Made by a program: the position numbers and the translations under genes
Shown here: positions 634 through 44,509 of the stretch, piece after piece
Numbering within the stretch: the first letter of the stretch is position 1
Layout of the letters: each line of letters starts with the position of its first letter
The notes under the pieces: model-generated
Database searches by the model: none
Seen by the model: the letters and a program-made list of their open reading frames with translations, nothing else
Told to the model about the DNA's origin: nothing
Assembly: GCF_032854445.1 (NCBI RefSeq)
Contig: NC_088295.1
Location: forward strand, 47,479,385-47,543,384
DNA from: Liolophura sinensis
Taxonomy: Eukaryota > Mollusca > Polyplacophora > Chitonida > Chitonidae
Direction: 5' to 3'
Length of the DNA stretch: 64,000 nt

Positions 634-3600
634 CTTGTTTTATCAAATTTCCAAACAGGAACCACGCCACATTCAGCTGAAGACGGTGTAGAACCATGAA
701 GCTGCAGTCTGTACAGGTACATTTATCGGAAGAATCAATACTTTGGAACGTCCCCAAAACAAATGCTGTACCCAGCAACGATATCGCGGTCAAAACCAAG
801 GCCTGCCATGATAACAGATCCACTAAAAGGCGCCAGCGAAGGTCTACGTCATCTTGGATTTTGTAATATGCCTGCATGCTGTTAATACTTACAGGGTAAG
901 TAAAATCCATGGAGAGGGCTCTTTCTGGTGTCATCATTAAAGGACATGCCAAGATATCAAGTTCCTGACAACAAGCACATGGGAAAATTACGATAGATTT
1001 GAGCTTAAGCAATATTTAAAAATCTATTCTTTTTAAATATGCATGTGTTTTATTTGTAAATTTGCTTTTTGGGTGTTAAATAAGTTTTATGAAAACTGAA
1101 AGGACCTCCTAAAACCCATAACAGTGTCACTGCTTATTCAGAAGTTGGAACAAATGAGAAAACTTGGGATTGAATGCCCATTAATAGAAAAAAAGACCCA
1201 GTGAAACCAAGGTTCTTTTTAAACGAAATGTGGATGAATCATCTGAATTTTTGAAGATTCATTTTGTCCCAGTTTGTAAATAACAAAAATAAGAGATCAC
1301 CAATCAAGGCGAGAAATACAAACCTCGTTAATAAGCATGTCGAAAAGTTTCGACCACTTGTAGTCGGTGTCATTCAGGTCGATATACTTGATGCTGAAAA
1401 AGTCAGCGTTAAAATGAACCTAAGCAAACCTGAAAACATGTGCCTGGCATATTTAGAAACATTCCTTTCGAGAAAGTCGAATGACCCAAATAACCTTCGT
1501 TCAAGTATACCATGGACAATATGGGTCATACCACTTTCTCCAAATGCCAGGCACCTATCTTTAGGCTTGCTAAGTTTTCTGTTAAGCATTACTTATATCA
1601 CATATTCGAAAGAAGAGATGATAAATTAGTAATTGTAACTAACGTAATTAAAAAAAAATTTTTCATTGTTTCCTTAATCAGTGATATAATCACTTAACCC
1701 CCGCTTAAAGAATGGCTTAATTCTACATGGGAATCAAGTCTGCCAGTCAAATAAGAGAAATTGTTCAATATATATGACAGTGAAATCACAACTAAATAAA
1801 TGAACAAAAAAAAATCATTTGTCACGGTTTAGATATTAAATTCATTACTGTTTCTAAATAATGTAAAGTTTCTTTGTTATCTTAAATTTATGGCTGGCTC
1901 CGTGTCATAATGAAGCTCAGGCAAAGGTCAGTGCTTTTCCGTTATCGTTCTCGATATTCTACTATCTGACATGTGAAGAATTCTTTACTTTAACGATAGT
2001 CACCAATCAAATACATTAGTATATATTCTTCAGACGGCTAGGCAGAGTGCCAAAAGCAGGCGAAATAACAAAAGGAATAAATATCGTTATATACAGACGT
2101 ACTTGAAGTTGAGGTAATGCGCCATTTCTTCCAGCAAAACGATTCCTAATCCTGTGTAGATTTGAACCCCGTCATTAGTCTTCTTCTTAACATACGGTTC
2201 CCACTGGGGTTGTACAAAATATAAACTTTATGCGATAAGAAGGATTCTCCAGTATTTTTTTGTCAGGGTTGACAAAGACCACTTTGGTGTTTGCTGTTAT
2301 GTTTTGCAGCAATTTGTACACCAGTACACGAAGACGACTTACTTGTGTCTCAGAGTTCAAGATCGGTTGTGTTGCCAACAGTTCGTGTTTTGTCTATCCG
2401 ACAGGAATGAAGATAAAAAGAAACTTGACAGATACTTTCCACCTACAAGTTATAGCTGTTGGAACGCTACGTGGGAATACATATCTATCACGAACTTCCG
2501 AACAATCACCACAGAAGATACATGTGAATTAAAGAAAGCACGATGCTTGTTGCATTACTGATGTTAAGTGACCTAACACTGATTAAACACTATTAAAACC
2601 ACCGCCCCTGTAAACAGGCTATGTATTTGTCAATTTGGCAACAAAGAAAATGCGTTTTTATATTTCCACAGGACCTCTCTATTGTGTCATAAGACAGAAC
2701 CTTTTAAACGTGTGCAATCTTATTACCAGACGGAGAAATCAATACTGAAAACGTGACAGTTCTGACGTTGATTTGATTTCTAAACTTATGTTAACATTCG
2801 ACTAAGAATGCATCGTGCTTCATACCAGATGTTCAGAAATTGATTTTGTAACGTTCTCAATGGAAATGGGAAACTATAAAAGGAAGTTGTCGTAATAAAC
2901 ACATATAATTGAGAAAAGACGCTTTATTGAAAGTATGAACAGTTAAGTATATAGAACACGATCTCACCTCAGCAACCCCAACCAGAATCGTTCGACCCTG
3001 AAGCCCCGTGACAAGGTTCGGGAAAAGCCTGTGCTCATAACTCGAGCTAAAATAACGCTCATCTTCGCAAATGTTAATGTCTTGAACCAAACGGAAATTC
3101 CTGTCGTTTCCCGAATGTTCCAAGGTCATGAGGTCAACAGAACATCCAGAATCCTGAGTTATCGTCTGGAAAACCGGACAAAAAGAATGACTGCGAACAT
3201 CCCCCAGTGCTAACATTTAACAGAGACCTTTAGTTAGAAGTTACAAGTTCAGCTGGTAACATCAATCTAAAATAGGTAAACTAGTTATGGCTTGAAATTA
3301 CGGAGTTACAACTTGTAACTTATAACCGAAGGTATCTAATAAAACATCTCCATGTTCACGCATAGATATTTACTTTCCAATCTTATGTTCGGATCTGCGC
3401 CTCATCAGTTCCTTATCTGTCTGTGTGAAATAAAATATCTGGCTATTAACCCAGCGTTAAGCAAGTCTATATTTTAGAATAACTTGTCCTTTACTCAGCT
3501 GTACAGCACTATGCCTCATATATTCATTGGGGTGTGGGATTAGTTCGCATTAAGTGTTACGTCTTGGCAACAGCACACTAATACTCTAGAGACATTTTTA

Positions 3601-6600
3601 ACTATCGTGTCTTAGCTCTCAGTTTCATATTTTTCCGTAAATTTGATCGGTTGTGCATTTCAAACAAAATGCCAAAATATGTATTTGAAAGTGTTTACTT
3701 CTTTGAAAGCATTCAACATAAGTGACCCTTTTGGAAACAATATTTGATTTGCCACAACACCTAAATATATACCGTGGCTGTTTCTTTTCCACATTTCAAA
3801 TGGGCGATTCGTGATTTGTGAAGTGTAGCTCTTACCTTTGGATACAAGTACGCAAAATTAGTAAACTTGTCAACCATCGCCACAGGCAGACTTGCCTTTG
3901 CAACTATCAACCATCTGGAGGAAAACAAAAAATTTGCCGAAGACCAACTTCTGACCTGAAACAAAAAAGCCACACTAAATAATATCTCGTAAAAGAGATT
4001 TAAAAACAGAAAGATTGTCACTGAAAAGCGTTATATTAAGGTATAAGACGCACAATGAAAAACAGTACTTGTTTTTTTTTTTTTTTAAAGGGACAGTTCA
4101 AAACCATTGAATGGAGGCTTCAATTATGACGTTATATCGTCATAACTGATAAGGACGCTTAACAAAATAGTTGACTGCTAAGCATATATTTAGTGTTCAC
4201 AAGCGTGAAACAAGGTTAAGAAGAGATTTTCCACCAATCTGGACCGTTTTGCTTTAGAAACTTCACCTTAAAAATGTCACAAACGTTTAGCTCCCCAACT
4301 TTCTGCATCTCAGTGTCTACTCTAAATAGCTTTTTTGCGAAACTCTTTGAAGGCGATCATGTTATGGTAAATGTGATCATTAATAATTTTTGACAAGTTA
4401 CATGATACAATAGGACTATTTTTATCTTAAAAGATAAAAGAGGTTGAAATCAAAACTCGAAATATAAGAGATACCGGCCTGCACGTACCTTGTTGATGAT
4501 TTCTTCAACGCAGTCTATTGGACAGATGACCAGGTGAAGGCGGCCGTTCAAATCTTGACGTTCAAAAACACCACGGTCGATTTTATCACCGTCCAAGTTT
4601 GACAATAGAGTAAGTCTGACTTCAAAAGATTGTGTAATCATCTTTAAAACGTCATTCGAATCATCTGAAAACAATGATTATATCACTTATATCAGATTGT
4701 TTTGACTCGTTGAAGTGAAGCAGAAGATCAAATTCCTAACTCTACACTCCTTTGAATATAGTTTGCCTTTTTTCTTAATTTTCACTAATCGGAAAACTAT
4801 AGGTTTCATTAGTTAATAGTGCATCTAGTACGTACATCTTTGTCGTTATTTTTGTACAGGCCATCCCACAATCTCAATCCCCAAAATATTTACAGTCTGA
4901 CATTCAAGAAAGTAGTTGCCTCTATGGATATGAGTATATTACACACAAGATTAGTAAGCCCCCCCCCCCCCCCCTTGCCAGAGTGGTTAGTGTACTGGTG
5001 CAGCAGAATAACTCAAAGGCCTCTTGATCCAAATCCAGCTCATGCTGGCTTCCATAGCTCCCATTTCGGTCGTAGTTGGGAAGGTCTCTCAGCAACTTGC
5101 GGATGGTTGTGGGTTTTCCCCGGGCACTGTCAGGTTTCCTCGCACGATAATGATGACCACCGTCGAATAAGTAAAATATTCTCGAGTAAGAGGTAAATAC
5201 CAAACAAATATAAAAAAAGTGAAAAGTATGCTGTAGGTAACTGACATTTAATCTGAGATGAGACATACTGTGTTACATGTATACAATATCGCTCATGGAA
5301 GAACAAAAGGACCATTGAATGGATTACCTCTCTCTGAATTTGTGTAGACGATCATCGAGGACAAGTTCAGAGCAGTCACAACTCGGTACACAGCTTCATT
5401 GTTAATCCGTTCCTCAACGTTAGAAAAATTGCCCATTAAACAATCTATAAAAGAATGGGTTAAGATTAAATACCCGGTACCAACCATCCTTTGTTTGCAG
5501 CCCTCTCTCACCGTCGCAACTTCAGTTTATTCTCCATTAGAAATACATTATTGGTGTATTTGATTATTGTGTAACGTCATACCCAAGAATACTCGGCTAA
5601 CACTATGTAGTGAGGGAACTGAAAAGCCGAATTTAATTGTCCTCGGCATGTGTCGCCAAACGCGGCCGTCCTTACCTAGGGCGATCAGATGTCGTACCCG
5701 TTTGATGTAAACATGTCCTCAGGTCGTAGATTGTCCGTCAACTGCATTTCATGGTACGCGCAAAAACCACACTAGATTGGCCAATCTAGAGCATGCCAAC
5801 TGCTCGTTCACGAGAATCGTTCATTTCTCAAAGCTGGTTAGCGTGTTTTTTTTTCTAATCACCAGCAAATTCTACACATGTCTTGATGCTTAGCCAAATG
5901 AAATTGTGGTCACCTCGCACAAGTGCAGGTCGCGTTTTCACAAAAGAGCGTGCTACATGCACCGCGCGGGGTTCACCACAATTGCAATGGTCCGATGCGT
6001 CTGGTCAGACCTAGTCATAGTGATATTAGCCCATATTAACTAACTTGTGCTACCCCTTTCCAATAAAAATTTTTTTTTTCAGACATGAAGGTTTTTCAGT
6101 TTATGTACCTGGCTTGCTTCCGACCCATTTCAGTTTGCGGAACCTATATAATCGCGTACTGTATTGTCCAGAAACAAGAACATGTCTTGGTATTATAGGC
6201 TATATATTCTACAATACTCCGATCTCCAAAAAATAAACTTCCGTACTGTTAAAGAGACATTGTCGATGGTGAAAAAATTCTGGTGTTATCTTAGACGTTA
6301 TTTACATTAAGTTGAGACTTTCAAATGTCTACTGACAAGTAGGCTAAGCATCTAAGCATCCCCGAGACCTGAGACTTAGCATCCCCGAGGCCTGGTCCCT
6401 TTACATTGTTTTAATGTGATTGTATGTTAAATGTGATGACAACACATCACTTTGAGTAATTCTAGACCAGTGACATCTAATAAATTGCAATTAGCATCAC
6501 TGCATTTTTTTTACCTACTTCTGCTTAAGTCATGGTGCCACGGGACGTGTAAATCGCTACTATTTATGCATAAATATGAACAGTTGAATAAAATCCTGTC

Positions 6601-7967
6601 TGAGGTAAACTGACAAGAGGCCGTATTTCACCAGTTACGTGCGATCATTTGACAGTATCACACTGTCGTCGCTGCTCTGCTTTTACTCTCCATGATGTAC
6701 GATTTTAATTACAATGTATCTGACTTTGAGTGAACAATCAAATGCACACTTTTATCCGGCATTTACCTTGGACCATCAACTCACTCAAATCGCTATATTT
6801 AGAAACATGGTCTAAGTCTGACATTTTTGACTACACGACGGGAGATGTTCAGCGAAGTTCAAATGTCAGACACCGTATTCTTTTGTAATGATGCGGCCTA
6901 CCACGCAACTTCAGTTCTGCTGTAAAATTCGATAGGAATTAGTGTCTGGTTTACTAGACTTATAATTCGCTGTCAATCTATCATATTGCTTGGGAACCTT
7001 TGCGCTGCCTCATTTGCATGTTATCTCGCCGGTGGAAGAGTTTACACCATTTCCATTTACAATTCTCTTAACTGACATATTTGGGGAAATATAGGCCCAG
7101 GAGGTTTAATTTGGGGTGAAATCCAATCATTTTTACTTAGCTGTACCAACTCATACAATCTGAATTTCTTTCAGCGGTGTGTCCCTTGCAGGGTAAGCGT
7201 CTTTTTGCAATGTTTTAATGTTATTGTATAATGAATGTGATGACAACACAGCATCTTGAGTAATTCTAGACCAGTAACGTCTAACAAAGTGCAATTAACA
7301 TCACCGCATTTGTTTTGGCCAAATTCTGCTTAACCCGTGATGCTAGAGGCGTGTAATTTGCAACGGTTAGCATAAAGCCCTGACTGAGGTAAACTGACCG
7401 TATTTCACCGGTTACCTATGACCATATGTCAGCTATCACACTGTCGTCGCTGCTCTTGTTTTACTCTCCATGCAGTACGTCTTTAATTATATTAATTAAT
7501 CTGTACGTTTAGTATGATACACCCCACTCAACATATCACCGTCAAAATGTATGACGCTTTAGCATAAAATAAATTTACATTTACATACGCATTCTCGGGA
7601 GGCAAGTGGAAAACGGACAAAAAACAAACACACACATACTGAAAAAAACACAGAAGTCGATACGTGGAATTTTCCAGCATAATAAACAGATAGCCCGTAT
7701 GGAATGATCAAGTCTACTAAAAATTAAATACCTTTAAACACACTTACCTGGCCTTGATTGTTGTGACTTAACCACAAATGTCATGAAGCTAACACCAATC
7801 GTATAAAGTACAGTGCATTCAGACATGACTGAAAGCATAGTTCGCTCTGAAAGAATTGAAGTACTTGGTTTAAAGCTGTATATTGATCGCTGTGACCCAA
7901 CCACAAATGTCATGAAGCTTACACCAATCGTATAAAGTACAGTGTATTCAGACATGGCTGAAAGCAT
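634..7967 (-). CDS. Ionotropic-glutamate-receptor-like channel, copy A (3' part cut off by window edge)
   Basis: Eight coding exons, in order: 7748-7838 (or to 7967), 5328-5444, 4489-4664, 3836-3955, 2968-3165, 2103-2203, 1324-1393, 634-964. All junctions are GT-AG and their phases agree. Exon 1 gives a hydrophobic signal peptide. Exon 6 begins W-E-P-Y, the usual start of iGluR S1. Exon 8 carries the end of S1 with the ligand-binding arginine (T-P-E-R), M1 (LLSWQALVLTAISLLGTAFV) and a pore loop ending G-N-L-I-K-Q-G, with lysine where AMPA and kainate receptors have Q or R. M3, S2 and M4 lie left of the window. Known of the family: tetrameric cation channels gated by small ligands at the plasma membrane. 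There is no room for a full amino-terminal domain, as in most IR-type receptors. The ligand is unknown. Exon 1 is tandemly duplicated (see findings). The exon 5 acceptor could also be at 3153. Confidence 0.82.
4975..5216 (+). repeat. tRNA-derived SINE, degenerate copy
   Basis: Plus-strand copy lying in the intron between exons 3 and 2 of receptor gene A. It shows the degenerate box-B region, the core (GGTTTCCTCGCACGATAATG, equivalent to the family's cccaccataatg) and the 3' end near the (AAAT)-like tail. A poly-C run sits just 5' of it. Confidence 0.8.
6340..6700 (+). repeat. Dispersed repeat family R2, copy 1
   Basis: Shares long stretches with 7200-7480: the aagcatccccgaggcctgg head, a gtgatgacaacacatcac segment, and a tail reading ctgacaagaggccgtatttcacc followed by cactgtcgtcgctgctctg. 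Shorter relatives of the tail occur at 20.3, 21.3, 23.2, 23.8 and 37.3 kb, and reversed at 10.7 and 27.1 kb. No coding capacity. The class is unknown; a SINE or a non-autonomous DNA element is possible. Confidence 0.65.
7200..7480 (+). repeat. Dispersed repeat family R2, copy 2
   Basis: Same orientation as the copy at 6340-6700 and alignable to it over most of its length. Both lie in intron 1 of receptor gene A. Confidence 0.65.
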
Positions 7968-8013
7968 AGTTCGCTCTGCAATAATTGAAGTACATGGGTT
8001 AAAGTCGTATATT
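7756..8013 (-). repeat. 129-bp tandem duplication covering exon 1 of receptor A
   Basis: Two units of 129 bp in direct orientation. Each holds about 50 bp of 5' flank plus the signal-peptide exon. The downstream unit keeps the splice donor at 7747-7746. In the upstream unit the sequence switches into the second unit's flank just before the donor would come, so it has no donor but stays open in the same frame. Confidence 0.85.
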
Positions 8014-11000
8014 CCGTGGGTCAGTTTAGTTATCTCTGGCTATCACGCCACGTTTTACCCATCGATGGCTGCTATGCGTGTATTTACTGATCAAATTTAA
8101 ACACGAATCCCTGAATGCATCCGAATGGTGCGTATTTATGAATCAAATATTTATAGTGTTTTATCAGGTTAAGTTTTCATGATCTCACCCCACGAAAAGC
8201 TACCTCATGCAGTAAATGTCCGTGCTCAACAGTTAGCTTAGATGTTACCTTTGAGATGCAAGTTAAATAACATAATCCGCAGATTTGCTGCTTTGTGTAC
8301 TGTGTTCTTAGGTGCCCTTGATGGACAAAAATTAAAAACACACGTGATAAAGATATCAGTATATAAAAGCAGCCTACACGTCACAGGAAATCTTGTGCTT
8401 TACGATTTTTAAGACTTCAGGTTCTCCTCTACAACAGCTTGTTGACTACAATCACTTCGACATATCTAAATATACAAAAGAATAAACAGGATTTTGTTGA
8501 ACACTTGGGTGTGTTCTGTCTTATATGGAAGGACGGTGTCTACAGACACTGCAGTGTGGTCTTGGACAAGAGATTTTGTTGCGACAGAACAGAGCAATTT
8601 AGTGAGTTGGCTACAACTCGCATAAATACCTAATGCATAAGAATGACGCATGTCAACTTGAACGTTATAACATATTAATATCGTCCATGGCGTTATTTTT
8701 CAAGGAATAGGTTGGTATCTTAACTCGGCATTAAATATTTTTTTAGATTTATTTCAACCCAGTAAAAGTTAAGTGAAACTTCGTCTTGAGACAGCTTCAG
8801 CACGTCTTCGTTATCGAGAGTAAAGTGACGTCACGTTTACTCCAGCTCTTTAACGTCGAAGGTATTTTCAGTATAGTGTAAGCAGTAGCTTCTGGCAGAC
8901 AAAAGTTGTGGACCTCGGCGATGAAGGCCCAAGTGATAACTATAGTTTTCTCGGAAATTCGACATACTGGAAGAATATTTCTTCCACTGCTTGAACTGTT
9001 GATATTATGTGCCTATTACATCATTTACAAATAACTCCAGCGACCCTGTTTAAATAGCCTAGCTGGAGATGTACGATCGGGATATTTTTGGTTCTAGTCG
9101 TAGCCTCCGGAGGGTTGTGCTGGTGACTTTGACCCCTACTAAAATTACAAAATTACAATAGGATTGTTGTACAACTAGATTCATGCTCAACTCTGAAACA
9201 AGCCAAATATAAATTCTTCACTTGTAATAATTTCAGAGAAAAAAATGATAATTTTAAGCTGTGTCCGGTGAGATGCCATCTTATATTCCCATAAATCTTC
9301 GGCATCCCTAATGAATTTTGCGCTGACTCTGATATTTGTTATTTAGAAACTGCTGACTAAACTCTAAAATGAACAACAAAAAATGTTTTTGGGAAGATAT
9401 ATGAGGTTTGGGCCGTGACGGTATGTTACTGTCTGACATAATTTGCCAAACCGTCGTTGAATATTACACGACTTGTAAATCAGCTGCGTTTACGACTGTG
9501 GTGGTTCGTAAATGACACAGACCTGCCCCACAACACTTTGTGAAATGGCCCTTCGGCTACATGTAAACGTTATAAATGATTTCAAAATGAAATCTTATGC
9601 AGTAATTCTGTGCTATTATATGTCACTTCTTGGAGTGAATGGATAAAAGCTGCGTTGCAGCTTAAGTCGTGTGATCTGACAGGAATCTGACACAAAAATC
9701 TTGACATAGGTTGTCCGTCAAAATCTGAACCTTCCCATGCCAAAAGCTTGGAGGAATACTTAGTAACGCCAAGGGGACGCCATTTGCGGACTCATCACTA
9801 CCTGGCACTTTGTGTCTAGCCAAGAATTCGAAACTTTCATCAATAAAACTCCTGCCTAAAGTTCAGAAAATACTTTTACCATTTTCATACTTTGGATGTG
9901 CCTGTACACCAAAAATGGCCGGCTGGCAGCGAAAACTTTATACACTAACACACACAGAAATAAATTCAACTACAAACTAATAGGGTACTGGTGTCATACA
10001 GATTTGTTGTGCCACCATCTATAGTCAATGTGCAATGGTCGATATCCGGAATATGTACTAATCCGAAATTCTAATGAAATAAGTGCAAGTGTTTCTCCAG
10101 GTCAATAATCGCAAGGCAAATTCCCAAAACGGCGTTTAACACAAAAGCAACAAAGTGCTAATAAAGTATATAAAGTTAACGGAATCATCATGCAAAGAGA
10201 TGCGGTCAAAAGTGTCAGTGATGCTGGAGAGGCGTAAGGTATGTTATAGGCGAATGAGTGAAATCAGTATTTAAATTGTGTACCATGCTAAAATATAGGT
10301 TGTCGGTAAAACACGTATCTCGGTTGTGCTTTTGATTGTTCATATAGTCAACGTGGCGATTTAATTCAACATGATGAGTACATATGTTCTATAGTCCCGG
10401 GTTAAGCGGAATTAGACGCAATCATGAAGCCAAGCATCCTGAGCGTCATTTACAAAAACGTCTGTTTACTTATTTATTACGTTACACACTGAGATTCTTC
10501 AATAAAATTCGTCGACTTCTGTACCTGGTAGTAGACAGTGTAATGGAATCTTTCAAACAGTGTCTTGAGATTTTTTTGTCAGGAAAGGAATACATAGATA
10601 CAAATATCGAAATTTGTCTTGCCGACTTTTGTATAAATGGAAAGTTTTTGAGTTCGACATAAAACAACAGCGAAATAAATTAACTAGGGTAGAAACCTGA
10701 TCATAAATGTAATAAAAGATTTACAGCAGAGCAGTGACGACAGTGTGATAATTGACAAACGTTCACACTTAACCGCTGAAATACGGCCTATAAAGATATT
10801 TCTTGTGACATATTCTTGCGTACGGTAAAACTTCAAAACTTCAGTTGATCACCTGATAAGTTTCAGTATTTTCTTATGTCATCATTTATGATGATGGCAT
10901 AATAAAATGCTGAAATATTGAGTCAAAATGAAGATTTAGTTTTTCGAAGTTGCACTGTTTGTGCATTACGTAGATCATCAAGGGAATTGATAAATTAAGT

Positions 11001-11990: not shown

Positions 11991-19434
<7,444 letters not shown>

Positions 19435-21717: not shown

Positions 21718-24700
21718 TCATTTCTTTACTAAAAACCGCTGGACGCATGACTCACACAAAAATGTTAGAACTGACACTGTCGTCCCGACGCAGAAGAGAA
21801 TGAACACGCTCTGGACATGTGAAAGGTTGAGATATGTTGTCTTCGTCTTCTTCACTTTGCAGTTTCTTTTGGGTAGCCACTTCTGTCCCCATCTTTCCAA
21901 AAGTCCACTTTCATGGAAGTTGATGATACTAAGTAACAACAAATCAATCATAAGTTGGTAAAAAAACAAACGCCAGCCAACCCTACTGAATGAAAGCAGT
22001 ACATGCAGCTATACATATGTAGGTAGCCTTATTACAAAGTCTGTCAGGGCCAATGTGTTGGGGGGGGGGGTATTTATTTGTTTATTTATTTATTTATTTG
22101 ATTCTTGTTTTAGGCCGTACTCAAATACACTTCCCTGATACGATGGCTACCAGCATTATGATGGAAAAATCCGGAAAGTGCCCGCGGGAAGACGCATGAC
22201 CTTTCTGCACCTTGTTTAATTGATATGACGAGTTTAAATATGGAGAAAGCGGGAATGCTTGAAGTAAGACAACTTTTAGGCTTAATGCCGCAGCAGAAAC
22301 AAGGAGAGCTGGATTTGTTTTATTTATTTACTTGATTGGAGTTTTACATCGTATTCAAGAATATTTCACTTATACCACAGTGACCAGCATTATGGTGGGA
22401 GGAAACTGGACAGAACCAGTGGGAAACCCACCACCATCCGCAGGTGGCTGCAGGTCTTCCCACGTACGGCCAGAGAGGAAGTCAGCATGAGCTGGACTTG
22501 AACTCACCGCGATCGCACTGGTAGGTGCTGTCACTGTTGGCGTCGAAAATTTCTCGATATTGATTGTGGTATAAATTATAGAATTTAACATTTAGAATGC
22601 CAACATCGCTTCACAGAATAAGTGCTCGAATACAAAGTGCCCGACAGTTTCATATATCTACTGAAATTTATGACGATATGCATCTATCCATTATCGTAAA
22701 CATCATCTCACCTTTCAGACAATAAGCTGGCGTATTTCCAGTTCTTGGAAATTGGGAACGAAAGGGCCATTTCAATAATCCTTGTGTCCATGTACACAAC
22801 ATCACAATTTTCAGCGTAAAACCCACTGTTGCTAACATCTATATGCATAAAAGCATATTTTTCTCTTAGAACTTTTTCTTTGTGAACATTTAAGTTTGTA
22901 CTCATTACTTCGTCGTCAGTTTCCGCAAACTTAAGCCACCGAGTATAAAGCTGTCGATACTCCTCTTTGTCAGCGTCCTGCAAACAGATTGGACAAAAAC
23001 ATATCGATCATTTCAGTCCATGAGAATTAATAGTTATGCCTAGAAGGGAAGGCCTTTCAACCGATCTTCATGAAACTGTAAATTTTGTCTAACTTTCCTT
23101 AAACCGTGGTGAAAAGGGCTTGTAAGCCGCTACCATTTAAGCCTTTGCATGAACAGTAAGAAAAAAAAAACTAGTGACAGGAGAAAACTGACAAGAGGCC
23201 GAATTATCACAGATTATTGGAGACCATTGCCGGCGATTAAATGGTTTCACTCTCCTTGCCGAAGGTCTTATGTATGTAGTTTAACCTTAGTTTTATTAAG
23301 AAGCAGCTCCTTCAACAGGTGCATGGGTAAGTATATATTAAATAATACGTGCATGCTTCAGCGTGTTTACTGATCCATTATTAGATGTAGGGCTCCAAGC
23401 AGAGTACCAATCAGAATTGTTCTCCCTCCTTGGAATACCACAGCTGAATTTCTATTGGCCCAACAACGAACGGACATTTTTCATTAGATTTATAGTCAGA
23501 GACAGTATGGGAATGGCATAGTGGCAAACTGCGGAGCTGTGAGTAAGAATATTTTAGCCTGGCCAGCACATTTAGTTTTCGGCAGGTGGACTAAGCATGC
23601 CCGAGGCCTGGACCAACTGCACCGGAACTCCATTTTTGTACTTATTTCTGTCTCAGCTGTAGAATGTTAAAGATCTGTAAGTTGTTACTACTTAAACATT
23701 TACATGAAAAGTAAAACCTCTACAACTGTGACCACAGAACTGACAAGAGGCAGGGGTCCACAGGTTAGGTCTATCAACTATCAAACTGTCGACGCTCCTC
23801 TGATCTTTCTCTCAATGATCTCGTTTTTTATATTACAAAATAATACCTCAACACACACCTTTAGGAAATCGATGATATAGTTCAGTTCCCCGAACATCCC
23901 CCACTTGTACTCGTCTTGGTCTAGCAGATCCTCGACACTGTGGAACAGAATAGGTTGTTTGACAACGCCAAGAGCGGGGACGAGCTGAGCAGCAAAAGTA
24001 GCGGTGAGAACCAAACAAAAGATGCACCAAGTCGCCACCACAATTCGTGTGGAGAACGCCTTCTGTCTATGTTTTACCTGAGGCCTGCCTGAAATGTTAA
24101 CCCAATTCATGATAACTTATAGCTTAGCAGTCAGATTCTATCACAATGGTAGAAAGAAAAATACTACTCTTAATCGTTAAAGTGGCCTTTTTCCTCAGTA
24201 TTAGAACATATTTACTCAGGCATATCGGGTTGAACGTTCAGAAATATTATTCCCTCTGAATCTTCCAGTTCTTTATTTGTTACGAAAAGACAAAAATAAA
24301 ATCAAACATGGAGCTTGCTCTTCAACGGCATTTTACACAATTAAGATATAAGAAGCAGAACTGGCGAAAAAAAGTAACTAGATTTTATTTAGTTTTACGC
24401 CGTACTCAAGAACATTTCACTTAGACGACGGCGGTCAAAATTATGGTGGGAGGAAACCGAACACCGTCCGAGGGGAAACCCATGACCAAGTTTCATGCAG
24501 TCGTGCATAAACCTCGGGTGTTAAAATTTTGGAGAAAAATCGAATGATTTCTGGAAAAATTTTTGGCGAATTATTTGAAAACCAAAAGTCAGTCGGGAAA
24601 AAATCTTTAAACTTCATAATCATGCAGTCAAGGTACCGACTTTAGAGCTAATTTCATTGACCAGTTACAGCTTAATTTGCATACCAAACTCAATGATTAT

Positions 24701-27700
24701 TGGAATCTTTGTAGGGCCATCCACTGGGAAACTGCTAACGAAAATATCATGCGGATAGCTTCAGTCGTTCTTGAGAAGAAGATTTTTAATCTTATCAATA
24801 ATATTCAAAATGGCTGCTAAATTACGTGACTGACCAAACAACACAAAACGTCAGAAGGTGTTCATATGTTTGTTATTAAAACCCCAAAATTTGGTTTTTC
24901 TACCTTTACCAGTTTTCGAGATATTGCAATTTTACCAGCTGACTAAGAATAATAATAATAATACGAACGATTTCAGGAGACGTCCAGCTCGGATAGCGTG
25001 AACCTCTAATAAACAACTGAAAATTTGTGCTCGAATGTAGTCTGGGTAAAATTCAGGCAGCCTACACAAAGATCATTAAATAGACCTTCTTCATATTTCC
25101 AGTTTCATTCTACAAGACCTGGCATTCTCCAATGTCATGACTTCAGTAACATAATGTTCATTGCATGACAATTCATAAGTGATGACACTGCAATTTTTGT
25201 GATATCACCATTTCAACGCAATGAGTTCAGACCCCAAGCGTGCACGTTATTTACACACATTAATAACGTTGAATGACGGGTCTGCACATCATATGAGAAG
25301 GTCTGTTGTCGTAAGCTAAATTTCGGTGTATACTTATTTCATCTGAACAATATGCACCAAATATATAATATATAAATTTATCATTAGAACAATTAGAAAC
25401 ATTAGGAAGAATAATGCAGTCAATAGCTTGACGGTGAATTTATTGTCGCTATACTAACCTTGTTTAAGCAGATTCCCAAACAAGAACCACGTAAAATCAC
25501 CAATTTTTTTACTCATAACTCTCCATCGTTGTGCAGACACGTTTGGAGAAACATCAAAGAAGCTTTGGAATGTTCCCAACACAAAGGCTGTACAGAACAA
25601 GGACAAAAATGTCAGGACAACGACTGGCCAGGAACAAATGTCCAACAGGAGTCGCCACCGACGATCCACTTCCTGTATTGGCTTGTAAAATACAATGATG
25701 CCACTGAACAGTACAGGATACATAAAGTCAACTCTTTTGTTCCTCTCTGGTGACTTAACCAGTGGGCAACCAATTATATCGATTTCCTATTAAAATAAAA
25801 CAAAGCAACAAGATTCACTGACGACAAATGCACTTTCATATAAGATATAGTACAGGGAACAAAACTATAGCCAAGACCTCGTTCAAAAGAATGTTTGTGA
25901 TATTTTAATAAAATATTCTATTCATTTATCGCAAATAATGTTATTTTTATCTGGGATTTCTTTCAAATGTTGACAGGTTTCCCATTCAAGCAGATAATAA
26001 GCGTCTGCTGCATCGAAACACGTTAAACAACTGACGCCTAACATAGAAACGAACAACATAAACTGAATAATTCTACAGCTACAGTTGAAACAGTTTTCTT
26101 TCTGTAGAAGAATTAATGATAGAGGTTTCACGATCGATTAGCAGTATATTTCAGTAATATTTTGGCGAAAGAGTTTCTCCACAAGATATGTTGAATGAAG
26201 TACGAAGTATCACATTTTTCTTTACAGCCACTGTGCATATTTTAAAATACATGTAAAGTTATTGGACTCCCCCCCCCCCCCCCGTGGGTTCAATTTCATG
26301 AAATTTGTAAATTACTTTGCTATAACTTGTAGCCTTGTTCGAAAAACGCTACGATATAATAAAAGATTTACTGCATAGAGAGTAAAACGAGAAATAAAAC
26401 GAGAAATAGTCCAAACATTCAAAGTTTTGGGAATGTCGCCCATTGTAAATTACATTGTGATGATCCTGATATCTTTGGTCACACGTAATGCAAATAATGG
26501 CATCGCACATTGAGCTAAACTAAATACCATATTTAAGTGTATGTTGGTACACGTAGCTTGCGACAAATGACAAAAGAGTTGGGCCACTTGTACCTTGTTG
26601 ATAAGCATCGTGAAAAGCTTTTCCCATACGGAATCTGTATCGGTGAGTTCAACGTACTTGATCCTAGAATCGAAAATAAATGAGATAACGCATATAAAAC
26701 ACGGAATTATAGCTTCTTTCCACATTCAATAGCTAAAACGTTTGTGTTTTATTGCACAATCTTAAGAAACATTTATACATTGGCTGCAAGGAAAGCAAGG
26801 GTCAATATTGTGAGAGACATACACTGTATATATGTCTGATCATATTCAATATCTGCAATATCTTACCACTTAACAAGTGGCGTTAAGCAACCATCAAATC
26901 ACTAAATTTTACCCAGGTGATATTTGGACACAGAGATGTGAATCAGCCACGCTTATAGGTTACTCTTAGGTGTCCAGGGCAATGTTAGGAACTTGAATTT
27001 GAACTATGAAACTGTATGCGTTGAAAAAACATTCGTATACCAGCCATCAACCAATTTTGACGTTACAGGCTTACAAGGCCAATTCACAAAATGGAGTTTA
27101 ACACAAACCGCCAAACATAATTAAGATGGCCTCTTGTCAATTTACTTCACTTAGGGTTTTGTTCTAACTATTAATGTAAATGCATAAACAGGAGCAAATT
27201 ACATGCCCCCTAGAGAAATGGCATAAGCAGAATTATGTATAAAAAGCAGTAGCGTTAATTACATTTCAAATTCTATTCAAATTTTACACAGAATGATATA
27301 TTATTACAGACAGACATACTTGAAGTTTAGAACCTCTGCCAGTCCTTCCAAAATATCGATGGCAAATCCAGTAAATCTCTGTTTTCCTCTGGTGGACGTG
27401 TTCTTAATCACTACAGGTTCCCACTGAAAACAGACAGGCTACGTTTGATGTCACACCAAAAACAGGCAGACAACATTTAATGTCACACTGAAAATAGAAA
27501 GGCAACATTTAATGTCACGCTGAAAATAAAAAGGCACCATATACGTTTAATATCGCAACAAAACAGAAAGGCAACATTTAATGTCACACTGAAAATAGAA
27601 AGACAACATTTAATGTCACCCTAAAAATAGAAAGGCACCATGTAATGTCACATTGAAAACAGAAAGGCAACATTTAATGTCACACTGAAAATAGAAAGGT

Positions 27701-30700
27701 ACCACGTAATGTCACACTGAAAATAGAAAGGTACCACGTAATGTCACACTGAAAATAGAAAGGTGCCACGTAATGTCACACTGAAAACAGAAAGGCACCA
27801 CGTAATGTCACAATGAAAACAGAAATTCTACATTTAATGTCACACTGAAAACAGACAGGTTACATTTAATATCAGCATTATGCTGCACAGTGGTGATATC
27901 GGCCACATGAGTCATGTACTTAGGCATTACACTGTAGTTTCGAGCATTCTAGTCTCTCTTGAAAATTCGCTTCTCTAAGCAAAAATCTCAAAAAACAGCT
28001 CTTTCTTCCTAAACTCACTGATATTTCTGATGATTACCAGCACATGGTGTAAAAGAGAAAGTTTGTTAACTTCTTTTCGTCTAAAAGACTGACTGGCCCA
28101 TGATCACTGAAATCGTATGCTTGACAGTGTCCTCAAGTTTTTCAGATATGTGACGACGGTCGGTGGGTTACTCAGGGCTCGTCGATTTCCTCCACTCGAA
28201 AAGGTGATCACCGTTACATAAGTCAAGAATATAAGTCAAATGCATAAATACATGTTCTCTAAAATACGGCATTTTTGACAATAAACTGTACCAAATTGAC
28301 GTAAATGTTCCCCAAAAGAATGAAAGAATGTTTTGGACAAAGCAAAAAAAAAAATAACACGCACTGCTTCACACACCACATTGACAGTATTTCAGTTATA
28401 TGAGAGGGTATGACAGAGCAAAAATAACAGGTTCTTCCTCACACACCACAATGGCAGTATTGTAATCATAGGTGAGAAGATAACAGAGCATAAACAACAG
28501 GTACTGCTTCATACACCACACTGCCAGTATTTCAGTCATATGAGACGAAATAACAGAGCATATATAAAAAAAACAGGTACTGCTTCACACACCACATTGG
28601 CAGTATTTCAGTCATATGAGAGGATATAACAGAGGGTATATAAAAAAAAACAGGTACTGCTTCACACACCACAATGGCAGTATTTCAGTCACAAGACTGC
28701 GAGGAAATGCATACTCTTTTCAATGGTATTTGAATGATATTTAAATTTCCTTCTTTTCAATGGTATTTGAATGATATTTAAATTTCCTTCTCCTTTAATA
28801 CTGACTTCTGACTTTTGATGACTCGTTACTGAAATGTAACGTCGAATTCACTAACAGCCATTGAATATCCGAAAAAAGTCTTTCCTTACACGTGACATTG
28901 TCAAGATAGCCGATTGGCCCTCCGTGGCACTGTGGACAATATACTGTAACTCACGAGGACAAAAAAACCAGTAAATACCTCATTGCGAAATTTTACAATT
29001 CATTGTTTCGTTGAATGTATTGATATAAAGAACGGCTATGAAAAATATTGTGGAACATTATATCTTAAATATTTCTGCAAAGATATCATTGAAAACCACG
29101 ATGTACGGAAGACTACAGAATAAGCTTTGTATTTTCCACGAATCTACGCAGATAAAATATTTCATTTGTTTATTTGACTTGTGTCAAAGAACATTTCATT
29201 TGTACGACGGCGGCCAGCATTGTGGTGCAAAACCCACGACCATCCGCAGGTTGCTGACAGATCGTCCTGCGTGCGGCCGGAGAGGAGGGCTGGACTTCAA
29301 CTCACAGCGATCGCATTGGTGGGAGGCTCCTGGGTCAATGCGCCCCGCTGGCGTGCTATTCCAGGAAATATTAGTGCCGACTATAAATATCATAAATGCT
29401 TGTTGACATATATTGAATAGTATTTGTATGTCATGAAATGGTACTTTGAACCATTCACCACTTAAACAATACAGTTAAGCAAAACGTTTTTTGCCACATA
29501 ACGTTGGTCAATACACTCACCTCTTCAATTCCTATCCGAACTATTCGACCATTGAAACCTCGGTATAGGTTGGGGAAAATTTTGTCTCGGTAAACCGTGC
29601 TGGAGTGCCCCTCGTCCTCACAAATGTTAATGTCCTCGACGGGATTAAATACCCTGACGTCATCAAACATTCGTTTGTGTCCACAGTTCAAAAGGACAAT
29701 TTGAACACCCGAGAGGTTTCAACTGCATAGAAGCAATTTCAAGATAGAATGAATTATTTTAATATTAGGAAAACGGTGTAAAGGAAAAGCGAGACAAAAC
29801 CAAATTAACATTTACAACATTATAATATGGAGTAAAAAATAATAGCTTAAGTTTAAAGGGCATTTGGACAAATCGCATTAAGTTAAATGACATTAATTCA
29901 GTGACATTTTTGTGGCTTCACTGAGTGTTTACGACAATGTCTTAACTGTATACGAGCGCATCGAATGACCGCCCTCTTCGATTTCCTGGTTGACAGTTTG
30001 CATAAAAATCAGTTATGTGTTTTACATATCTGTGGAATCCATGCGAATAACACTGACAGTATCGATTTATGTTGACCTACTTCTCTCAAATGTCCCTTTC
30101 CTACCGATACACTTCGCGTGTATAGAGGCTAGCTTTTACAAAAAGTATCTCGAAAGCGTTGTATTCATATTGGTTCGTGCGTTCAGTTATACATCACCAA
30201 AGGTGGATGTATCGTAAAGCACTTCACATCTGGGCTACGACAAATGAGCCACAATTATGGTTCATTTATCACTGTATCACTTAATATGTCCCCCCAAGAA
30301 AAATTTCAATTTCCGTATGGTTTTCTTCAAATGCTATGGATTTTACTGATACGGCAACGGTTACAAATGACATCGATACTCGGAAACTTGTCCCAAAAAT
30401 ATCGAATGGAGTGCAACAGAGGAGTGCCAAATCGTCGAATGCGCTTTAATGTTATTCTTTCACTCACTTTTAACACACATTACGGAAGATTTCTTGGTGT
30501 GTTTTATTCCATCGTGCAAGTTGCCCAAAAACATTAATATATACATGACAGTACAGAAAGGGACCTTGTCACTATTATATGACTGGTGCGGGAATGCATA
30601 AGCGTATATCGTGTCTAGTGCTGTAGTTAGCCTAATTTTGGTTGACCTCCGATTTAACACTGACGTGTTTTTTTAACACATTGAAAACACATTTCCACAC

Positions 30701-32828
30701 TATATATACAAATTTAGTTCCATTCTAACTCATAACGCTGGCTCAATGATGTAGAATACGAAAAGACAGCGTGCAATGGGTAATGCATAAACTCCTCAGG
30801 GATTTACCTTTGGGCATATGTAAGCGATATTATCCAGCCTTGTGGTGATCGTCGAAGGTAAATGTGATGTTGTCATCACCAGCCATTTGGATTTAAATAA
30901 AAACTTCTCCGAAAGTCCTGACGTCATCTGAAACAGAAGAAGGGTCATACGCGATGTGTTGATTTTGTTAAGCATGGAAAAAGGAATACATGGGATATTT
31001 GTTATTGTCTTAAAAACCATGCAGGTAAAAAACAGAAAGGGCTCTGACATGAAACACAGTTTTGTTGAAAAAATGAGAGATCTAAAATGCCGACATTTTG
31101 ATCCTTTGGGTTTCTTTTTGATATTCACCTAATGAAAAACGTGTTGACGATAGCATCATTTAGATCAACGAGAAAAAATCGTGGGTTTCATATTTTACAC
31201 ACTCACCAGTTTAATGATATTTGTGGCATAGTCCAATCCACCAATGATGACATGAAAAGGCCCTTTCGAACCATCAAATACTCCCTTGTTGGCAAGGTGG
31301 TGAATTTGTTCGGTGTTTATATCAGATAACAAGGTCACCCGAAACGTCTGACCTTCGGTGAACCTCCGCAGCACAGAACTCCGGCTGTCTTGGTGAGAAA
31401 ATGTCAGAATGAGTCTCTTAAACTTGACTTTTGAAGAATATGATTAAGTGTAACAATAATTGGCAAAAAGATGCATGAACTGTGATAAAATGCTTTATTT
31501 CCCGGCGTTCCCCGCCAGTAAGGCAAACCATCAGGTGCAAATAATATACTAAGGACTGAGTTCAAATGAAGTGTCTCAGGTAGATATTTTTGTGCTATGT
31601 TTATTCGTATGGAAATTTGTAGTCTAACGTGCAAATTTTAGTTTTGATCGAGACTTAAAAAGGACGTGCAAGGATACCTGATAATGAGTCCGCATAAATG
31701 CTGAGCGACTTCCAATTCAGACCTGCTACAATTCGGTGTACCATTTCAATTTCTTCTTCACCGAGCCCCTTGTGCTTGTTTGTATAATTGCCATCCAGTG
31801 ATTCCTTAAGATTATCTGCAAATCAATAGTGTGACCGAAAATGGTTTGGACAATTGATGTATATAAGTCATACTCCTTAGAGCGCATGCGTCCCTCTCTA
31901 CCTTTCCCTTTACATCACTGCCACCAATATACAAACTTGACCTTTGGAGCCTGTGAGACACACGCAGGCTTGTTTAGGCTTAGCCTCATCATTGTTTCTC
32001 CTCTCGCTGAAATACTTAATCAGCATTCATCAATAAAAGTATTTCAGATTTGGGTTAGAATCATGTTGAACATACTTTCGATAAAGAGAATGTATGCGTA
32101 TAAAGTATTATTAGAAACAAAGTTGAGACGGATTGTTTGTGTTTTCTGACATCACTTCCTGTTTCATCACTGTGGCCCCATGATTTCGGGGTTGTTCAAG
32201 AATTGTGTACAGACTTTACTAGTAGTGGCAGTGATGTAAAGCGAAAGGTAGAGACCCGCCCATGTGCTGCAAGGAGTATGTGTATAAGTTTCTTCCGAAA
32301 GCTATTTATTTTCATCCACGATAATTCAAATGGTTTTGAAGTTAAATCAGAATTACATAGATAAGTACACAAATTAACGTAAAACCAGTTTATGAGGAGA
32401 AAACACATATCTGCGAAGATTGAGGTGAAATACTGAAAAATACTATAATAAGGTCTAGTATTTAACTTCAGATAATTTAGCAGATCATCCTGCCAACATA
32501 AAAGATGTGATAGAAATAACAAATGCAATACATCCGCCAAAAGTATTCTCGGTGATCATTTATTTATTTATTTGATTGGTGTTTTACGCCGTACTCAAGA
32601 ATATTTCACTTATACGACGGCGGCCACCATTATGGTGGGAGGAAACCGGACAGTGTCCGGGGGAAACCAGCCTATATACTCTTGCAGTCTACATACAAGT
32701 GACTTTCTTCAATAATGAAAGGACAAAATACACAGCTAATTAGACTTACTTGGTTTTGAGGCAGGGGCGACATTCACTTTCCCAGTCATAAACCCATAAA
32801 AGAGCACTACAAGTTGAAATTTTATCAT
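21718..32828 (-). CDS. Ionotropic-glutamate-receptor-like channel, copy C (one frameshift)
   Basis: Eleven coding exons in the same order and phases as B: 32750-32828, 31678-31815, 31207-31388, 30808-30927, 29521-29722, 27320-27423, 26594-26663, 25459-25786, 23859-24088, 22712-22977, 21718-21928. Six have exactly the length of their B counterpart (for example 182, 120, 70, 328 and 266 nt). The signal peptide is M-I-K-F-Q-L-V-V-L-F-Y-G. S1 keeps the arginine (K-S-P-E-R). The pore ends G-N-L-L-K-Q-G, with lysine at the Q/R site. The M3 gate reads F-A-A-Q-L-V-P-A-L-G. M4 is present. The summed length is 643 codons plus one base: exon 5 (29521-29722) needs a shift near 29660, where the frame homologous to A and B meets stops. 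So either the gene is newly inactivated or the base is an assembly error; everything else looks functional. Its introns are long and carry SINEs and two tandem-repeat arrays. Confidence 0.83.
22080..22200 (-). repeat. tRNA-derived SINE, 3' fragment
   Basis: Starts with the (TTTA)n tail and runs into gccgtactcaaatacacttc and a diverged core. Minus orientation, in the last intron of receptor C, beside a poly-G run. Confidence 0.75.
22318..22530 (-). repeat. tRNA-derived SINE
   Basis: Minus-strand copy in the last intron of receptor C. It shows tail, core (gaccagcattatggtgggag), accatccgcaggtggctgca and the box-B-side agctggacttgaactcac. Confidence 0.85.
23590..23810 (+). repeat. Dispersed repeat family R2, diverged copy
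   Basis: Has the head aagcatgcccgaggcctgg and the tail ctgacaagaggcagg, then actgtcgacgctcctctg. It lies in the intron before the S2 exon of receptor C. A second fragment of the same tail is at 23.17-23.29 kb. Confidence 0.6.
24380..24490 (-). repeat. tRNA-derived SINE, 3' fragment
   Basis: Shows cgccgtactcaagaacattt and then a core cut short after about 110 bp. Minus orientation, in an intron of receptor C. Confidence 0.75.
27440..27870. repeat. 32-bp tandem repeat, about 13 copies
   Basis: The unit is close to aatgtcacactgaaaatag followed by aaaggcaacattt. It begins right next to the acceptor of the S1 exon (27320-27423) of receptor C and fills that end of the intron. Confidence 0.92.
28340..28705. 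repeat. About 73-bp tandem repeat, 5 copies
   Basis: Units contain actgcttcacacaccaca, then cagtatttcagtcatatgag and an a-rich linker. It is in the same intron of receptor C as the 32-bp array. A separate 41-bp direct duplication (ttcaatggtatttgaatgat) follows at 28719-28795. Confidence 0.9.
29160..29350 (-). repeat. tRNA-derived SINE
   Basis: Minus-strand copy in the intron between exons 6 and 5 of receptor C, with core (acgacggcggccagcattgt), accatccgcaggttgctgac and part of the tRNA-like head. Confidence 0.85.
32555..32672 (-). repeat. tRNA-derived SINE, 3' fragment
   Basis: Shows the (TTTA)n tail, gattggtgttttacgccgta and the core, then stops after the cggacagtgtccgggggaaa segment. It lies in intron 1 of receptor C. 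Confidence 0.85.
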
Positions 32829-32935
32829 GATAGGTTTAAGACTTTAGATCAAGTATTTAGTAAATCCATCCCAGACTACTTACAACCAGAATGCATGATG
32901 TACCTGTTCGCACATATGCGCTAGAATTGTTTGCG

Positions 32936-33144
32936 TTAGGAATATGACAGTCCACTGGTAGAACATATTTGTTCATACAAACGTTTGTCAGCACAGGTAT
33001 TTCCACCGAAGTTTTGTATAAACAGGTAATTACATTGTTGTGTTACACAAATGACGCCATCATATGCATATTTACACTTGGTTCTGCAAATAAAATCCTT
33101 TGTTGAACAGTCAAAGGCACAAATCACACAACAGACACGCGAAC
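32936..33144 (-). CDS. Cysteine-rich 3' terminal exon of an unrecognised small protein
   Basis: The acceptor tatttcttag is followed by 68 codons and a stop, entered in phase 1. Ten of the residues are cysteine, with spacings such as C-x2-C-x3-C-x6-C-x3-C-x8-C-x4-C, which is typical of a small disulfide-stabilised secreted domain. I do not recognise the family. It lies only about 110 bp upstream of the first coding exon of receptor C, on the same strand, but it ends in a stop and so cannot be a 5' exon of C. The nearest upstream exon of matching phase is the signal-peptide exon at 34651-34774 (relic D); joining the two would give a secreted peptide of about 110 aa. That link is an inference from phase and order only. 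It could also be an isolated open frame by chance, though the cysteine pattern argues against that. Confidence 0.45.
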
Positions 33145-34261
33145 CTAAGAAATAACATGTGAATATTTTCTACACGACAGCGTTTTATCGATTACAGCCG
33201 GGAGTGGTAAAGTGCACGACCATTAAGGGGTTCTGATTCCTACGCGTTTGACTAAATTAGCGCTGTAAAACACATAATGTTAGTCTTTTATAAAGAGGAA
33301 CCAAGAAAAGTTTGGCAGAGCAGCAAGCGATGAACATGTTAGACACATTAGACAAGAGAATTTGCGCGCTCTTCACTCTCAAAATAATAATTTATTTCAC
33401 AGAATGTTTCTTGTTTAAATGATGCTAGAATGTATTCTGTAATTGCAACAGATTCTGTTAAATACAGCACATATTTCAATACTTCACCATGAAGATTGCA
33501 ATAGACTGACATGACATTAAGCTGAAATCTGTTATAATACCACAATTCATTCTAGCATCCAAATTCTTAAAAGTAACAGAGTATGTTTTTGAGTGCACCG
33601 GGAAAATACATATCAGAGAACAGGAACTGAAATAAAATGAAACGTCTTCAACAATTTAAACAATAAACAGGTTTCGAAAATACATTCTTAACAGTGCTAA
33701 TCCACAACATGTCTGATAACACTTTTATTCAGACAGTTCAGACCGAGTGAAAACTAAGTTTTAGGCCTCCATATAACGTGATTACTACAGATTATAGTCT
33801 TCTCGAAGACAATAATCAGAATTGTCATGTGACATGCTATCCCTTAACTCGATTAACTATCACTTACAATGATAGATCTAATTTAAAAAGGGTAAAAATT
33901 TCAACTGCTAGTACCAAAAATTAAGCATTGTGAGAAGATTTTAGATTTTGACTTTGTCAGTTCTGTTTTTTGTGGAATCGGCCCCAGAGCCATGTCGCAA
34001 GCAACTGACTGTGTAATTAAATATTGTACCGATGTTCATGTTAAAGATTCATTTTGATTTTTACATCTAATAACTAAACCTCATTCAACTGTTCATTGTT
34101 CACTTATGATAGACACACTTTTCTTCTCATCTTTTACTTGACCTTATACGGATGTCGTGAGGGTTGTTTGGAAAGTACTATGATATCCCACTGGAAAAAA
34201 GTAAGTAAGAAATATTTTACTCCACTGCCTGTAAAAATGCTCTTTTTGGGGCCACGTTTAG

Positions 34262-34774
34262 AACATACCTTGGTAAATTAGATTCTGTAATCACAAAAAT
34301 CAATCTCACTGAGTTTTAACGTCATCTGAAATCAAAAAATATCCCGTTGTACAGAAAGAGTTTGGCATATATATCATCTTCAATAAGAAAATTAGATGTT
34401 TTGACACACAAGTTTGAACAGTAGCATAAACTCCATAGACGCAGAATTCTTTGCACACTGTGTACAAATTTTCTAATTTCCGTTCAGACCATCTTAATAT
34501 TGCATTTTGCACGTCCGCGAATGATCCAAGCCGTTCTTGGCCTTTTATTAATCACAGAATTAATGGTTATTCTTGTGACCAGATACATAGCATCAAGTAT
34601 ATCATCAGTAGGAAACTGTTTATAATGCAGAAAATTGGACTCAGATATACCTGCTTCTGTAACATGGGTCGATTTCACTTTTCCAGTCACAAGCACAAAG
34701 GTAACCGCCAGAATGGTAAGGTTGCACTTTGCGAGGCGCAATATTAGTGTCTGGTGTGGTCCAGCATCAGCCAT
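34262..34774 (-). pseudogene. Relic D of a fourth receptor copy (5' exons only)
   Basis: 34651-34774 reads as a signal-peptide exon of 41 codons ending in phase 1. Its V-T-G-K-V segment matches M-T-G-K-V of receptor C exon 1. Just downstream, about 34510-34615, D-A-M-Y-L-V-T-R-I-T-I-N resembles exon 2 of A and B (A-V-Y-R-V-V-T), but in a frame that does not fit a normal splice. Near 34326, after tttcag, M-T-L-K-L-S-E matches the start of exon 4 (M-T-P-E-L-T-E in B) and soon meets a stop. No S1, pore or M3 exons were found between here and receptor C, so this copy is truncated and decayed. The first exon might still be in use by the cysteine-rich exon at 32936-33144. Confidence 0.55.
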
Positions 34775-35019
34775 TTGCCTGTCATACTATTTGTCAGCAG
34801 GGATAATCCCGATGTAGTTAATAAGTCATTTTTGTGATACTAACGATACATTCAAATACTGTCGTTCAATAATGTCTGTAAGCGACAAATGTGGTATAAA
34901 AATTTGTGTTAACCATCAACGCCCTTTACCTCCAGAACATTTGCTGGTATAGGCAATTTTGAACTCTGCATGTAGTCATAATACCACTTACGTAGGAAAT
35001 CCTGACGAATGTGGAAGAC

Positions 35020-44411: not shown

Positions 44412-44509
44412 TTCTTTTGTAATTACCACCCTGCAAATGAAAATGAGCATTTCTTTTATTTGACCGGCGGACTTTTCATACATTCTAGACATTACTGCAC
44501 ATAATTTGA

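Follow-up and report, generated by a model that had tools for sequence, protein, structure and literature searches.

Probable divergent ionotropic receptor genes at one end of a nine-copy cluster in the genome of the chiton Liolophura sinensis

A stretch of 64,000 nucleotides (nt) on scaffold 1 (C1) of the genome of the chiton Liolophura sinensis (C1:47479385-47543384, hereafter the window) carries three neighbouring genes, A, B and C, which lie in tandem on the minus strand and follow one common exon plan. These genes are probably divergent ionotropic glutamate receptor (iGluR) family members of the ionotropic receptor (IR) type, standing at one end of a nine-copy cluster of ~395 kb, and we put the probability of this reading, together with the mechanism proposed below, at roughly 0.7. 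The cluster is made of two groups on opposite strands and of very different age, where A, B and C are old and divergent and six further copies, D1-D6, are recent near-copies. The assembly (GCA_032854445.1) was first published under the name Liolophura japonica and has since been renamed Liolophura sinensis (PMC12441733), a chiton, which agrees with the molluscan source supposed in a preliminary description of the window.

The copies were first seen as three-member families of minus-strand exons in an all-against-all comparison of open reading frames (ORFs), with the last exons of A supplied by the left flank. Gene B has 11 exons running from 19434 to 11991 and encodes an uninterrupted protein of 648 amino acids, gene C has 11 exons from 34774, the ATG of its first exon, to 21718, and gene A has 10 supported exons that remain open for 606 amino acids between 5444 and a point ~3005 nt left of the window. 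Inside the window gene A ends at 634, the 3' edge of its pore exon, and its last three exons were located ~70-3005 nt beyond the left edge, as had been expected of a gene leaving the window on that side. Intron phases are identical in the three genes (1,1,0,0,0,2,0,1,0,2), and GT-AG borders are found at 29 of 29 modelled introns; where several sites were possible the GT-AG ones were picked, but no such choice lies behind the agreement in phase, length and frame. The 120-nt and 70-nt exons have the same length in all three genes, the pore exon P measures 328 nt in B and C and 331 nt in A, and the S2 exon measures 266 nt in B and C and 263 nt in A. The shared phases and exon lengths of the preliminary description are therefore verified, with 328 and 266 nt applying to B and C, and its 11-exon layout stands for B and C, with A having ten supported exons and a candidate first one. 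That candidate was named from several openings in a scan of the 6.5 kb upstream of A and is unconfirmed; it lies within a 129-bp tandem duplication in whose other repeat longer starts are equally open, and it matches the first exon of D1 in length (79 nt). In gene B, a 61-bp duplication repeats the end of the pore exon, and reading beyond the first donor meets a stop codon after four residues.

Behind this common plan the proteins have diverged widely. Pairwise identity of the N-terminal exons is 20-38% in 11 of 12 comparisons, the exception being N2 of B against C (68%), and the lowest value (20%) belongs to N3 of A against C, where values involving C are depressed by its lost frame. The M3 exon is 57-65% identical among the three genes, and overall A and B share 41% and A and the core of C 48%. 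The IR-like anatomy and the old tandem duplication with divergence that had been proposed for these genes are supported.

The genome was searched with gene B and then with gene A, and the best 68 of 115 and the best 72 of 122 candidates were scored, so that weaker relatives may be missing. These searches found the six further copies on the plus strand at C1 47.683-47.871 Mb, spaced by ~35 kb and lying 169-357 kb from the start codon of gene C. As far as the searches reached, all nine copies sit in this one place on scaffold 1, and the other genome matches among the candidates scored are 22-39% identical and stay below 60 bits. Neither the 99 kb fetched to the left of the window nor the 96 kb fetched to its right yielded a copy. 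The suggestion that the array might be larger has thus proved right in number and wrong in direction, with no copy in the 99 kb leftward and all six additional copies to the right; the single orientation described earlier holds inside the window, but the copies beyond it lie on the opposite strand.

Exons N0 to M4 were read in five of the six D copies and N1 to M4 in D6, whose N0 lies beyond the fetched stretch, and the intron phases are the same as in A, B and C. A signal-peptide first exon (79 nt) was found in D1. Copies D1, D2, D4 and D5 have an open frame throughout N0-M4, D3 has a stop codon in N2, and in D6 a single base is missing from each of exons N3, S1b and P. Among the D copies exons are 97.31-99.95% identical, and in all 15 pairs they are more alike than the non-exon sequence. 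The ratio of nonsynonymous to synonymous substitution rates (dN/dS) is 0.29-0.86 in nine of the ten D1-D5 pairs and undefined in one. Such close copies could in part be an artefact of assembly, in which two haplotypes were placed end to end and the real cluster is smaller. In keeping with this, three of the 15 pairs (D1-D3, D1-D4 and D3-D4) differ outside exons by 0.12-0.49%, below the reported heterozygosity of 1.24%, D1 and D4 have a single exonic difference in 1877 sites, and the HiFi reads (depth 14X, mean length 8.3 kb) are shorter than the 35-kb spacing of the copies (PMC11068029). However, the other 12 pairs differ by 2.1-5.2% outside exons, above that heterozygosity, and haplotypic duplicates are reported to have been purged from the assembly (PMC11068029), which leaves such an artefact somewhat unlikely.

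Profile searches placed the genes within the iGluR superfamily, as had been proposed. PF00060, PF10613 and PF00497 were each found in all three sequences scanned (A, B and the core of C), and a profile of A, B and C matched GluK2 in the PDB (7f56 and others) at E=1.9e-37, with its best stretch at profile positions 185-591, along with GluD1 and GluA2; chance resemblance to iGluRs is ruled out by these Pfam and PDB matches. Like GluK2, the profile has the order S1-M1-pore loop-M3-S2-M4 and aligns with it through M4, and the five sequences A, B, C, D1 and D5 were aligned with GluK2 over the stretch that begins with S1 and closes with S2. The long amino-terminal domain (ATD) of conventional receptors, described earlier as lacking, was not recognised in either database. 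The Pfam ATD family PF01094 gave no match in A or B at E<=1 and was absent at E<=10 from the N-terminal parts of four of four genes (A, B, C without N3, and D1; A and D1 without their first exon), a negative limited by the HMMER filters, which discard most weak matches. A PDB search with the N-terminal profile likewise returned no ATD, its two matches at E<=10 being unrelated, and a shrunken ATD finds no sequence support in these searches. IRs have been defined by a PF10613 and PF00060 core, an N-terminus of ~200 amino acids without an ATD, and partial loss of the glutamate contacts (Croset et al. 2010, PMC2924276). The chiton cluster combines a short N-terminus free of PF01094 with a ligand-binding domain that lacks at least one glutamate contact, and the features that mark AMPA and kainate receptors (ATD, S2 threonine and glutamate contacts, M3 motif SYTANLAAF) are absent from it.

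At the positions that we take to be the glutamate contacts of GluK2, the S1 arginine is kept in the aligned A, B, C, D1 and D5 and in all eight copies that have this stretch in frame (A, B, C and D1-D5), and five of five aligned array sequences have other residues in place of the S2 threonine and acidic contact. In M3, SYTANLAAFLT of GluK2 has become F(T/A)AxLVPxLG. Unlike GluK2, in which the first glutamine of QQG is the Q/R site (Q621), the profile of A, B and C has lysine there, and lysine at this calcium-permeability site without an acid at +4 was found in nine of nine copies (A, B, C, D1 and D5 by alignment; D2, D3, D4 and D6 by translation). The roles assigned to the contact residues agree with published work, in which mutants of the Q/R-site glutamine of fly IR84a are described as conducting monovalent ions without calcium permeability (PMC7882480). 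The pore residues of the cluster suggest tuning subunits that would pass little calcium and would probably depend on a partner. Another iGluR-like locus of the genome, L003 (C8:30559202-30559516), encodes arginine at the Q/R site, so that departure from glutamine is not unique to the cluster.

A tree was built from five array sequences (A, B, C, D1 and D5), GluK2/GluK5 and four further iGluR loci of the chiton, one of which (L001) is a partial sequence; L005-L008, which gave no usable frame on the translated strand, and the other D copies were left out. In it the array is split from all other sequences with branch support of 100/100 and a branch of ~2.6 changes per column, made up of 1.52 and 1.05 on the two sides of the midpoint root; D1 and D5 are closest to A (91/96). 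All four of the other chiton loci read share with the array the acceptor at the start of the pore exon, and one of them (L001) shares the donor that follows M3. Introns at the same places in the array and in other chiton loci point to an origin by duplication of DNA, and a retroposed origin was rejected because introns are kept; the array genes keep old iGluR introns. Clusters of PF00060 exon matches were also seen at C1:6.07-6.31 Mb, C1:18.67-18.80 Mb, C6:12.8-12.95 Mb, C6:14.2-14.4 Mb and C8:37.56-37.73 Mb, so that clustering of glutamate-receptor relatives is not limited to the locus described here.

It is conceivable that these genes encode divergent but conventional synaptic receptors gated by glutamate or other amino acids, from a mollusc-specific non-NMDA branch that lost its ATD, and not chemosensory IRs. 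Among the 357 solved relatives matched, the 60 best that were listed belong to the kainate, delta and AMPA receptors, the retained S1 arginine would suit such a role, and mollusc-specific GluR-m subfamilies have been reported in gastropods (PMC12837371). This is nevertheless an unlikely account of the cluster, in view of the S2 contacts lost from every aligned array sequence, the missing ATD, the lysine at the Q/R site and the long branch to other receptors, and a lineage-specific tandem cluster with disrupted copies resembles chemosensory families.

The damaged gene of the window is C, whose frame is lost in exon N3; this exon measures 202 nt, whereas that of A has 198 nt and that of B 204 nt. 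Acceptors that would keep the frame sit only inside the exon, the first at 29634, at a cost of ~29 codons. There are three readings of gene C: a pseudogene of recent date, a gene whose N-terminal part has been shortened, or the product of an assembly error. The preliminary description had also claimed a separate decayed copy upstream of the three genes; none was found in the window, and the damaged upstream gene is C itself. Neither tblastn nor exon-profile searches, the last of them set against a reversed-sequence control, supported such a fourth copy. Profiles of ten exons (from A, B, C and copy D1, excluding the signal-peptide first exon), run on 260 kb around the window, gave 30 strong matches of 50.9-185.8 bits, which are the ten exons of each of A, B and C and are expected of models built from these very exons. 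The next-best match (14.0 bits, above the best control match) lies outside the window, near window position 68.1 kb, and spans no more than 13 residues of a single exon. Inside the window the best other match (11.9 bits) is the 61-bp duplicate beside the B pore exon, and the reversed sequence reached at most 11.6 bits, so that what remains in the window is about at control level.

Frame or stop lesions in three of the nine copies (C, D3 and D6) might be taken to mean that the locus is mostly decaying and that A and B are unexpressed remnants, and the uncertain first exon of A and dN/dS values of 0.66-0.86 in the four D5 pairs point the same way, but this is very improbable: all modelled splice sites are intact, B is open over its 11 exons and A over its 10, in four of the six D copies no lesion interrupts the stretch N0-M4, and conservation is higher in exons than in the remaining sequence in every D pair. 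Duplicates as old as A and B, intact despite 41% identity, would require long-lasting constraint.

Reading A, B and C as IR-type receptors of one nine-copy cluster has several points to answer. The first exon of gene A is a candidate only, and gene C is out of frame in N3. The highest dN/dS (0.86, between D1 and D5) means that constraint on the D copies may be weak, and the copy number may partly reflect haplotypes or assembly, as D1, D3 and D4 differ mutually by less than 0.5% outside exons. The IR assignment derives from anatomy and residues and not from tree position, the tree being limited to array sequences, four other chiton loci and GluK2/GluK5.

In the proposed mechanism, each gene would encode a membrane subunit that starts with a signal peptide (its exon found in B, C and D1, with a candidate in A) and an N-terminal part of ~200-250 residues in which no ATD is recognisable. 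The ligand-binding domain would follow in two lobes, with the pore between them, and a last membrane helix would end the protein. Closure of the S1/S2 clamshell on a small ligand, of environmental or internal origin, would open a cation pore. With the S1 arginine, which binds an alpha-carboxylate, kept and the S2 contacts lost, our best guess is a ligand that bears a carboxylate but is not glutamate. Lysine at the Q/R site without an acid at +4 predicts a channel that should pass monovalent ions and little calcium, and the subunit would probably form heteromers with a partner such as IR25a. What the sequence shows directly are the gene structures, the homology, the residue states and the copies present in the assembly with their strands; ligand class, heteromers, ion selectivity and a chemosensory role are inferred.

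Chemosensory IRs, which serve smell and taste in many invertebrates, are well known as a kind, and the chiton cluster is probably a further member. Like the divergent or tuning IRs of protostomes, it has a PF10613 and PF00060 core, no ATD, partly lost contacts and a tandem arrangement with pseudogenes, as is known from IR arrays in flies (PMC2924276). Unlike the divergent IRs of Drosophila, which are described as mostly single-exon (PMC2924276), the chiton genes keep 10-11 exons and share two introns with other chiton iGluR loci, and the lysine found at the Q/R site throughout the cluster is a difference from protostome divergent IRs. The IR-A, IR-C and IR-D genes catalogued in gastropods have 7-22 exons, encode 436-1361 amino acids and form small tandem clusters (PMC12837371); the chiton genes are like them, by description, as multi-exon mollusc IRs in a small tandem cluster, and unlike them in mixing very old duplicates (A-B, A-C core) with very recent ones (97.3-99.95% exonic identity) in two opposite-strand groups. 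In the literature searched, with subscription journals and preprints mostly outside it, 'ionotropic receptor' and 'chitons' co-occur only in one paper, on RFamide peptides, once each, and the main text of a comparative chiton genome study has 0 occurrences of 'ionotropic' and of 'glutamate receptor' (PMC12005716).

Table 1. Exons of genes A, B and C and an associated duplication (window positions, unless given on C1).
Feature	Position	Strand	Pfam
Gene A exon M4	C1:47476602-47476380 (left of window)	-	
Gene A exon S2	C1:47478631-47478369 (left of window)	-	
Gene A exon M3	C1:47479315-47479092 (left of window)	-	
Gene A pore exon P (end of S1, M1, pore loop), 331 nt	634..964	-	PF00060
Gene A exon S1b, 70 nt	1324..1393	-	
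Gene A exon S1a, 101 nt	2103..2203	-	
Gene A exon N3, 198 nt	2968..3165	-	
Gene A exon N2, 120 nt	3836..3955	-	
Gene A exon N1, 176 nt	4489..4664	-	
Gene A exon N0, 117 nt	5328..5444	-	
Gene A candidate first (signal-peptide) exon, 79 nt, full-consensus donor, unproven	7748..7826	-	
Gene B exon M4 and stop codon, 226 nt	11991..12216	-	
Gene B exon S2, 266 nt	13220..13485	-	
Gene B exon M3, 224 nt	13853..14076	-	
61-bp tandem duplication over 3' end and donor of B pore exon	14811..14933	.	
Gene B pore exon P, 328 nt	14885..15212	-	
Gene B exon S1b, 70 nt	16015..16084	-	
Gene B exon S1a, 95 nt	16553..16647	-	
Gene B exon N3, 204 nt	17182..17385	-	
Gene B exon N2, 120 nt	17597..17716	-	
Gene B exon N1, 182 nt	18084..18265	-	
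Gene B exon N0, 132 nt	18873..19004	-	
Gene B first exon (ATG, signal peptide), 100 nt	19335..19434	-	
Gene C exon M4 and stop codon, 211 nt	21718..21928	-	
Gene C exon S2, 266 nt	22712..22977	-	
Gene C exon M3, 230 nt	23859..24088	-	
Gene C pore exon P, 328 nt	25459..25786	-	
Gene C exon S1b, 70 nt	26594..26663	-	
Gene C exon S1a, 104 nt	27320..27423	-	
Gene C exon N3, 202 nt, frame lost compared with A and B	29521..29722	-	
Gene C exon N2, 120 nt	30808..30927	-	
Gene C exon N1, 182 nt	31207..31388	-	
Gene C exon N0, 138 nt	31678..31815	-	
Gene C first exon (ATG at 34774, signal peptide), 124 nt, phase-1 donor	34651..34774	-	

Other features of the window include an exon of a sulfotransferase gene at 43184-43903 (minus strand; PF00685, E=2.2e-18), and an ORF at 44220-44522 (minus strand) that has no Pfam match and by eye looks like an upstream exon. 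Just upstream of gene C lies a tandem array of 66/128-bp units with ~10 short units (35009-35653). Further tandem arrays have units of 32 bp (14 copies, 27422-27874), 70 bp (4.6 copies, 28350-28691) and 76 bp (10.6 copies, 58983-59776), and three among these and an (AT)70 run at 19036-19176 are inside introns of B and C. A dispersed repeat, recognised from similar ORF fragments, occurs in and between the array genes (18523-18606, 22350-22451, 24398-24480, 29177-29257 and 32587-32676) and by eye elsewhere in the window, and has the look of a short interspersed element. A non-coding RNA scan at gathering thresholds and a tRNA scan of the window were both empty.

Chitons have elaborate, dispersed sense organs, and the cluster provides candidate genes for a family of chiton chemoreceptors, with their exon coordinates given exactly. 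The prediction made for its pore bears on whether IR tuning subunits must carry calcium. Tentatively, and with more doubt than confidence, we propose that this is a receptor family with a positive selectivity filter encoded in the genome, made of tuning subunits that would depolarise the cell with little calcium entry and function poorly alone. If so, the burst of near-copies beside the old genes may be raw material for new ligand specificities in the sensory organs of chitons.

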